Shown piece after piece: positions 25,540 to 26,424 of a stretch of DNA of 64,000 bases. Each line of letters starts with the position of its first letter. The stretch's first letter is position 1. Location of the stretch: assembly GCF_000178975.2 (NCBI RefSeq), contig NC_015064.1, positions 2,914,001-2,978,000 on the forward strand. The letters run 5' to 3'. The position numbers were made by a program, and so were the translations under genes. A model generated the notes under the pieces. The model made no database searches. It had not been told where the DNA came from and worked only from the letters and a program-made list of their open reading frames with translations. Origin of the DNA: Granulicella tundricola MP5ACTX9. Its GTDB lineage: Bacteria; Acidobacteriota; Terriglobia; Terriglobales; Acidobacteriaceae.

Positions 25540-25690
25540 GCCATTGCCATTGCCGTTGCGGTTGCGGTTGCGGTTGCCGTTGCGGTTGCCGCTGCCGCCG
25601 TTGCCGTTGCCGTTGCCGTTGCCGTTCGGATTAGAGGGGGCCTTCAGGCCCCCGTCAACGGCCAGGAATAGAGAGGGGCTTTAGCCCCGG
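25540..25690. repeat. Composite GCCGTT array plus GGATTAG...GCCCCGG unit, upstream of RAYT
   Basis: About 14 hexamers (GCCGTT with GCGGTT, GCCATT and GCCGCC variants) to 25626. These are followed by CGGATTAGAGGGGG-CCTTCAGG-CCCCC and then GGGGCT-TT-AGCCCC-GG. It ends about 95 bases before the RAYT start. Confidence 0.92.
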
Positions 25691-25784
25691 CTCATCCCCA
25701 CCTTAACATCCCAATTCGGGAACCTCTCCGCCGAGACCAAAGAATCCTGCTCATCGACTACGCCTCGGATATACCCTCCCGTTT

Positions 25785-26234
25785 ATGTTCCTCGCACCAC
25801 AAGAACTCCGCACTTACTTCATCACCACCGTCACTGCCGATCGCCACCGCCTCTTCCAACTCGACCGCAACGCCACCCTTCTCCTCAACATCCTTGAAAC
25901 CCACCGCCTCAAGCAGACCTATGCTCTCCACGCATTCGTCCTCATGCCCGACCACGTCCACCTTCTCCTCACTCCATCCCCTTTGATCTCCTTGGAAAAA
26001 TCGATGCAATTGATCAAAGGAGGCTTTTCCTTCCAACTGAAAAGCGGCAAAGAGGTCTGGGCACGAAGCTACGACAGTCGCCGCATAGAAGACCGAGAAA
26101 GCTTCCTCAATCACGAGACTTACACCCACCTCAATCCCGTGAAGAGCAAGCTCTCCCCCACACCCGCCGCCTACCCTTACTCCTCCGCAGCCCTACCCCA
26201 CAGGACCGACCCACCCCCAAGCCACTTCCGATAG
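25785..26234 (+). CDS. REP-associated tyrosine transposase (RAYT, Y1_Tnp)
   Basis: A 149-residue single-strand transposase of the IS200/REP class. The HuH metal motif is clear in 'LMPDHVHLLLTP' (about residues 50-61), preceded by the typical 'YFITTVTADRHRLF' strand. The catalytic Tyr is expected in the 'YTHLNPVKSKL' region ('HETYTHLNPVKSKL'). These domesticated proteins cut and paste REP palindromes. Here it is bracketed by two copies of the same composite repeat, which marks that repeat as its likely substrate. The ribosome site is weak. Confidence 0.9.
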   Translation: MFLAPQELRTYFITTVTADRHRLFQLDRNATLLLNILETHRLKQTYALHAFVLMPDHVHLLLTPSPLISLEKSMQLIKGGFSFQLKSGKEVWARSYDSRRIEDRESFLNHETYTHLNPVKSKLSPTPAAYPYSSAALPHRTDPPPSHFR

Positions 26235-26242
26235 CAGTAGAA

Positions 26243-26424
26243 GTTGCCGTCGCCGTTGCCGTTGCCGTTGCCGTTGCTGTTCCTGTTCCTGTTCCTGTTG
26301 CCGTTGCCGTTGCCATTGCCGTTGCCGTTGCCGTTGCCGTTGCCGTTGCCGTTGCCGTTCGGATTAGAGGGGGGCTTCAGCCCCCCGTCCACGGACAACA
26401 AACAAATGGGCTTTAGCCCCGGGG
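26243..26424. repeat. Composite GCCGTT array plus GGATTAG...GCCCCGG unit, downstream of RAYT
   Basis: About 19 hexamers (GCCGTT, with CCTGTT and GCCATT variants) to 26359. These are followed by CGGATTAGAGGGGGG-CTTCAG-CCCCCC and then GGGCT-TT-AGCCC-CGG. It starts nine bases after the RAYT stop. Confidence 0.92.

Follow-up and report, generated by a model that had tools for sequence, protein, structure and literature searches.

A RAYT gene between direct copies of a dispersed two-hairpin repeat on the chromosome of Granulicella tundricola

The window analysed here is a 64,000-nucleotide stretch of the 4.31 Mb chromosome contig of Granulicella tundricola MP5ACTX9, the genome of which comprises 5,503,984 bases in 6 contigs and was published as a 4,309,151 bp chromosome accompanied by five plasmids (PMC4148992). 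At positions 25785 to 26234 (+), the window encodes a protein of 149 aa with HVH and YTHLNP motifs that is, judging from its sequence, a member of the RAYT (REP-associated Y1 HUH tyrosine transposase) family. The ORF contains the Pfam domain PF01797 (Y1_Tnp) and matches the NCBIfam model NF047646 (REP_Tyr_transpos) with 103.3 bits (cut-off 80). Its best relative in the PDB is TnpArep (4er8, E 1.2e-4), and the HVH motif (H57, H59), Y113 and N117 are invariant across 16 homologues. The original prediction of an HVH-type REP transposase within positions 25540 to 26424 is borne out by the model match, the domain and the invariant residues. Three more RAYT-like genes, with 29-42 percent identity, are present on the chromosome.

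The RAYT gene is bracketed by two copies of an element of ~62 nt with two hairpins, hereafter the doublet. The upstream doublet (25628 to 25690, +) consists of GGATTAGAG, hairpin 1 (GGGGGCCTTCAGGCCCCC), a spacer and hairpin 2 (GGGGCTTTAGCCCC), and the downstream doublet (26361 to 26424, +) is a direct, not an inverted, copy. A third doublet (19751 to 19811, +) is followed by an in-phase CCGTTGCTA, a remnant of an array. All three start with GGATTAG (at 19751, 25628 and 26361), their second hairpin GGGCTTTAGCCCC is found at 19796, 25676 and 26408, and each is immediately preceded on its 5' side by a TTGNNN hexamer array on the + strand, located at 19658 to 19747 for the third copy, at 25544 to 25624 for the upstream doublet and at 26244 to 26357 for the downstream doublet, where the array includes TTCCTG variant hexamers. 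Two bracketing copies of a composite repeat and a third copy at 19624 to 19812 had both been predicted and are both found; the direct orientation of the bracketing copies is a detail that the prediction did not give. An Rfam search of 19-27 kb assigned no RNA family to the units. Elsewhere in this region, an IS110-family (RNA-guided) transposase gene (21916 to 22977, +) is preceded at a distance of ~240 nt by an Acido-Lenti-1 RNA match (21627 to 21672, -), which is possibly part of the end or the guide RNA of that IS110 element.

Genome-wide, 65 doublet copies were aligned, all chromosomal, after three spurious or duplicate matches had been dropped; a pattern search of the five plasmid contigs found no copy. 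As genome-wide counts are based on pattern matches and on the chromosome stretches examined, they are lower bounds. The family is real, since CGGATTAGAGGGGG (≤ 1 mismatch) and GGGCTTTAGCCC have 64 and 68 matches in the genome, far above chance, versus 0 and 1 for the respective reversed patterns. An apparent wrong-way copy at 1812326 was rejected as a chance 14-mer without hairpins. Read 5' to 3', the unit is composed of between 0 and 24 consecutive TTGCNN hexamers, TTC, GGATTAGAG, hairpin 1, a 20-25 nt spacer rich in A, hairpin 2 (GGGCTTTAGCCCC) and GG. Hairpin 1 has a stem of 7 bp and a TTCA or TTTA loop. Its pairs are Watson-Crick in 451/455 cases, with six perfect stem versions that differ by compensatory changes, and its pairing (0.991) exceeds the best of 1000 shuffles (0.905). 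Hairpin 2 is unrecognisable in five copies, three of which share one replacement sequence; the doublets at chromosome positions 2111705, 2113193 and 2671333 have CCGGGCCGTGGGCTGTAACAACC in place of hairpin 2. Most doublets are intergenic, an ORF call spanning 10/65. One of the three further RAYT-like genes, a second RAYT (chromosome 1825105-1825700) located between carA and carB (names read from the flanking sequence), has doublets of a subfamily of its own (TTGAAAGGGC...CCCGAGGGAG) on either side in inverted arrangement, and a TTGC-like array lies beyond them.

Orthologues of the window RAYT (57-64 percent identity) occur in five congeners (G155, G163, G140, G157 and G161), and all five genes are preceded by doublets of the GGGATTAGCG/GGATTAGCG/GGGATTGGCG type. 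In G155 and G161 an inverted doublet is also present downstream, and the RAYT doublets of these two genomes lack any array. The loci of G155, G163, G140, G157 and G166 are positioned downstream of an rseP-like gene (name read from its translated end); at the rseP locus of another genome (G149), an apparent inserted mobile element interrupts hairpin 1 of a GGGATTAGCG doublet. Flanks could be scored at 103 RAYT loci, 48 of which have an upstream doublet combined with an inverted downstream one, more than any other layout. The direct layout, scored at 9/103 loci including that of the window, belongs to the minority; Terriglobus roseus shows it as well. Of 62 genomes of the genus, G. tundricola alone has the exact unit variant in abundance, with 43 matches versus ≤ 4 in each of the 61 congeners, by a pattern that would miss the congeners' GGGATTAGCG variants. 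Wider relatives carry the head forms GGTAGAAG or GTGGAAG, and in the complete genome G119, from another genus, doublets have multiplied without TTGC arrays. Because the doublet adjoins the orthologous genes in five congeners and is often inverted around RAYT genes family-wide, it is very probably the substrate of the RAYT. This assignment, made by comparing sequences, agrees with the original proposal that the two-hairpin element is the probable substrate.

The hexamer arrays are one-sided: at least three hexamers are found 5' of the doublet in 38/65 copies and 3' of it in 1/60. One or two hexamers and TTC are kept in nearly all copies, even where a longer array is missing. Array variants are copy-specific and homogenised inside each copy. 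Adjacent hexamers are identical within a copy at a frequency of 0.557, versus 0.288 when permuted between copies (maximum of 5000 permutations 0.355), and where the junction hexamer is TTGCTG, TTGCGG or TTGCCC, the array consists mainly of that same variant. Uniformity was higher in the hairpin-proximal half in 18 arrays and in the distal half in 1. Local growth beside the hairpin predicts both this gradient and the copy-specific variants. Other genomes lend modest support: tandem arrays 5' of doublets reach a score ≥ 13 in 9 cases versus 1, of 124 (sign test p 0.04; Wilcoxon 5e-4).

The arrays are part of a second dispersed repeat, which also exists without the doublet. Its head, a module missed by the original prediction (GTCATTCTGAGCGAAGCTCAGAACCTCCGTA), directly adjoins the array on its 5' side, both in the 19.6 kb copy and in roughly half of the copies genome-wide. 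This GTCATTC hairpin module (‘hairpin0’, stem TGAGC/GCTCA) heads the third copy at 19626 to 19655 (+), and genome-wide the arrangement GTCATTC-stem-loop-GAACCTCCGTA precedes about half of the doublets, joined to them by the array. Together with a TTGC stretch of its own, which in many cases terminates in TGTTCT or TGTTTT, the module is also found apart from the doublet. The window itself contains an unoccupied example at 11488 to 11550 (+), where the GTCATTC hairpin is followed by a TTGNNN array and a CGTTCTC end, and another doublet-free copy at 13362 to 13430 (+), with a short TTGC array and a TGTTCT terminus. Over 285 kb examined, 20/38 GTCATTC-type pattern matches lack a doublet, a few of these being chance matches without hexamers. 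Repeats with a doublet have longer arrays than repeats without one (median 8.5 vs 3 hexamers, p 0.001). In relatives including G119, a GCGAAGC-loop hairpin often directly precedes the GGTAGAAG doublet and is perhaps the counterpart of the GTCATTC module.

The position of the doublet within this second repeat follows the hexamer phase. When TTGC occurs within 40 nt 3' of a doublet, it is at offset 3 mod 6 in 23/28 cases, so that the phase is kept, and a TGTTYT terminus follows 6/60 doublets versus 2/540 control windows. Removing CGGATTAG...CCCCGG leaves an uninterrupted array in most doublets with an in-phase 3' TTGC or TGTTYT; the in-phase position of the doublet is TTGCNNTT^GCNN. At the ancestral rseP locus, G. 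tundricola has an array and neither doublet nor RAYT, and about twenty congeners without a RAYT there have no array in the stretch examined. No orthologous empty site was seen, and no relative found in a synteny search with DUF1800/MOSC keeps the neighbourhood of the window locus. The claim that the array moves with the hairpin element finds no support, given that arrays differ per copy, are most uniform near the hairpin and occur without the doublet. We therefore correct the reading of the tandem array as cargo, and suggest that the hairpins seed one-sided repeat growth.

In 65/65 copies, the strand of the unit is the one richer in C over the flanking 1.5 kb (skew -0.14 to -0.41). A skew of more than 0.12 in size was found in 23/38 chromosome samples taken between the examined segments, versus 65/65 unit sites. 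The skew of the G. tundricola chromosome is ~0.3 in size and gene-independent, with many sign changes and weak stretches between. Coding strand was rejected as the cause of unit orientation, the unit-strand skew being equal for genes on both strands (-0.293/-0.293), and simple replichores with an origin at coordinate 0 were rejected as well, fitting only 41/65 copies. Under that simple replichore assignment, arrays are not significantly longer in one fork orientation (p 0.20), and all copies have one polarity to the local skew anyway. The polarity of doublets replicates clearly in one other genus (G119: 34/41 elements, and 26 to 1 where the skew is > 0.05) and weakly in a second (G117: 14/20, p 0.12, not significant alone; 9 to 1). 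The other repeats of G. tundricola are equally polarised, with 25/25 GTCATTC repeats and 66/66 TTGC arrays; many of these are located at doublets, and 10 GTCATTC repeats and 7 TTGC arrays are > 600 bp away. Polarity is consequently not RAYT-specific and was rejected as proof of RAYT action; a general single-strand route or retention rule, coupled to replication, is indicated rather than the RAYT alone. Heptamer arrays, (CTAGGCT)n and (CCCTGAA)n, are present at 24841 to 24956 of the window, just upstream of the MOSC gene, and similar arrays elsewhere have this strand polarity too.

By the usual convention the leading strand is G-rich. The strand carrying the REP-like head, being C-rich, would then be the leading-strand template, which is opposite to the simplest IS200/IS605 expectation; either activity resides in the complement, or copies facing the other way are lost through repeated cutting. 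Sign changes of the skew along the chromosome may represent inversions that carried skew and repeats together. The window has a skew of -0.33 up to ~29 kb (1 to 29000) and of zero at 29800 to 64000, with the change at a tRNA-Met gene (29711 to 29787), and its right part (29800 to 64000) may represent an island that entered at this tRNA gene. As a broader and tentative idea, which we consider somewhat less probable than not, intergenic repeats of the Acidobacteriaceae (RAYT doublets, GTCATTC hairpins and TTGCNN arrays) might be inserted or retained with a fixed orientation to a strand asymmetry that is independent of genes. Each copy would then record the replication polarity of its segment, as the ~65 copies of G. 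tundricola, spread over a mosaic of domains with opposite skew, would do without exception, and hairpins would drive one-sided array growth.

We consider it probable that the locus is an Acidobacteriaceae-type RAYT locus with dispersed, non-autonomous doublets that entered the arrays of a second repeat in phase, followed by local array growth. The mobile part would be the two-hairpin doublet of ~62 nt (GGATTAGAG-hairpin 1-spacer-GGGCTTTAGCCCC), which the RAYT would cut and join as single-stranded DNA. Doublets would have entered the TTGCNN stretches of GTCATTC repeats in the fixed phase TTGCNNTT^GCNN and without target duplication, and this in-phase entry would explain the constant junction between array and hairpin. 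After insertion, the 5' array may have expanded beside the hairpin, plausibly because replication slips where the hairpin blocks it. A single orientation would follow from entry or retention that is sensitive to which fork strand is single-stranded, a link with replication that we infer. The direct layout of the copies around the window RAYT and the lack of a GTRG head count against this account, as does the absence of an upstream GTCATTC module from about half of the doublets.

The same observation bears on an account that we hold to be unlikely, in which the composite itself, i.e. the doublet joined to the GTCATTC hairpin or at any rate to part of the array, is the mobile unit and copies without the module are truncated or decayed. 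The module reaches the doublet through the array in about half of the copies, and hardly any copy is without one or two hexamers and TTC, so that a short piece of array could indeed be part of the mobile unit. Yet the GTCATTC-array repeat occurs alone, doublets exist without the module, array variants are copy-specific, and the orthologous RAYT doublets of G155 and G161 stand without any array. Homologous recombination or single-strand annealing of TTGCNN repeats could also have spread doublets between arrays with no role for the RAYT, which would fit the in-phase flanks on both sides and the polarity common to all repeat kinds; the association of cognate doublets with RAYT genes across many genera, and their multiplication away from TTGC arrays in genomes such as G119, make this very unlikely. 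Finally, the hairpins might be selected transcription or RNA-stability signals at gene ends, their mobility being ancient or absent. Conserved stems, mostly intergenic positions and a co-directional gene 5' of the unit in 49/65 copies agree with such a function, but the upstream gene is opposite in 16/65 and the downstream gene in 24/63 copies, skew predicts orientation in 65/65, no T-run follows the hairpins and no Rfam match was obtained, and we regard this option as highly improbable.

Of the known systems, the RAYT/REP ‘REPtron’ (Nunvar 2010, PMC2817692; Corneloup 2021, PMC8266576) is similar in its Y1 HUH RAYT, in cognate palindromes that are located beside the gene and dispersed at mostly intergenic sites, and in stems kept by compensatory change. 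The window locus shares with it the HUH motif with Tyr and Asn, the match to the curated RAYT model and a high-copy intergenic palindrome (65 copies). It lacks the GT(A/G)G head, having GGATTAGA instead, and the inverted flanking copies, as both copies are on the + strand. The window unit further differs by its two unlike hairpins in fixed direct order, and by the nesting of the doublet in a second repeat that carries hexamers in tandem. A REPIN/BIME likewise has a hairpin pair that acts as one repeat unit; however, a REPIN is a REP plus its inverted copy, whereas the window hairpins have the same orientation and different stems. The dissemination mechanism of RAYT palindromes is poorly understood (PMC8266576), and we found no literature accounts of TTGCNN-array nesting, hairpin-proximal array growth or strand polarity in a search that left most subscription papers outside its reach. 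The single strand relation in 65/65 copies, the cognate enzyme, the array repeat with and without doublet and the insertion phase together allow concrete predictions of strand, target and cut site.

Single-strand transposition of IS200/IS605 elements (PMC6006769) involves the same enzyme superfamily, has an orientation tied to the replication strand, and inserts without target duplication, which is compatible with the in-phase flanks of the window doublets; in contrast to these elements, the excision, insertion and strand assignment of the window doublet are putative. Closer in taxonomy are the ‘TIRtron/TIRYT’ systems (Di Nocera 2013, PMC3733652), acidobacterial tyrosine transposases, including those of Granulicella mallensis, with long flanking inverted repeats, some of which are double-palindromic and some of which form repeat families. 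We found no mention there of array, nesting or strand polarity. The window gene also adjoins a double-palindromic repeat that forms a dispersed family (two hairpins per unit, 65 copies), although its flanking copies are direct and a terminal inverted arrangement is thus absent. Because inverted copies and the GTRG head are both defining and both absent here, we place the locus as a relative of the REPtron and TIRtron, a variant of the RAYT/‘TIRtron’ kind.
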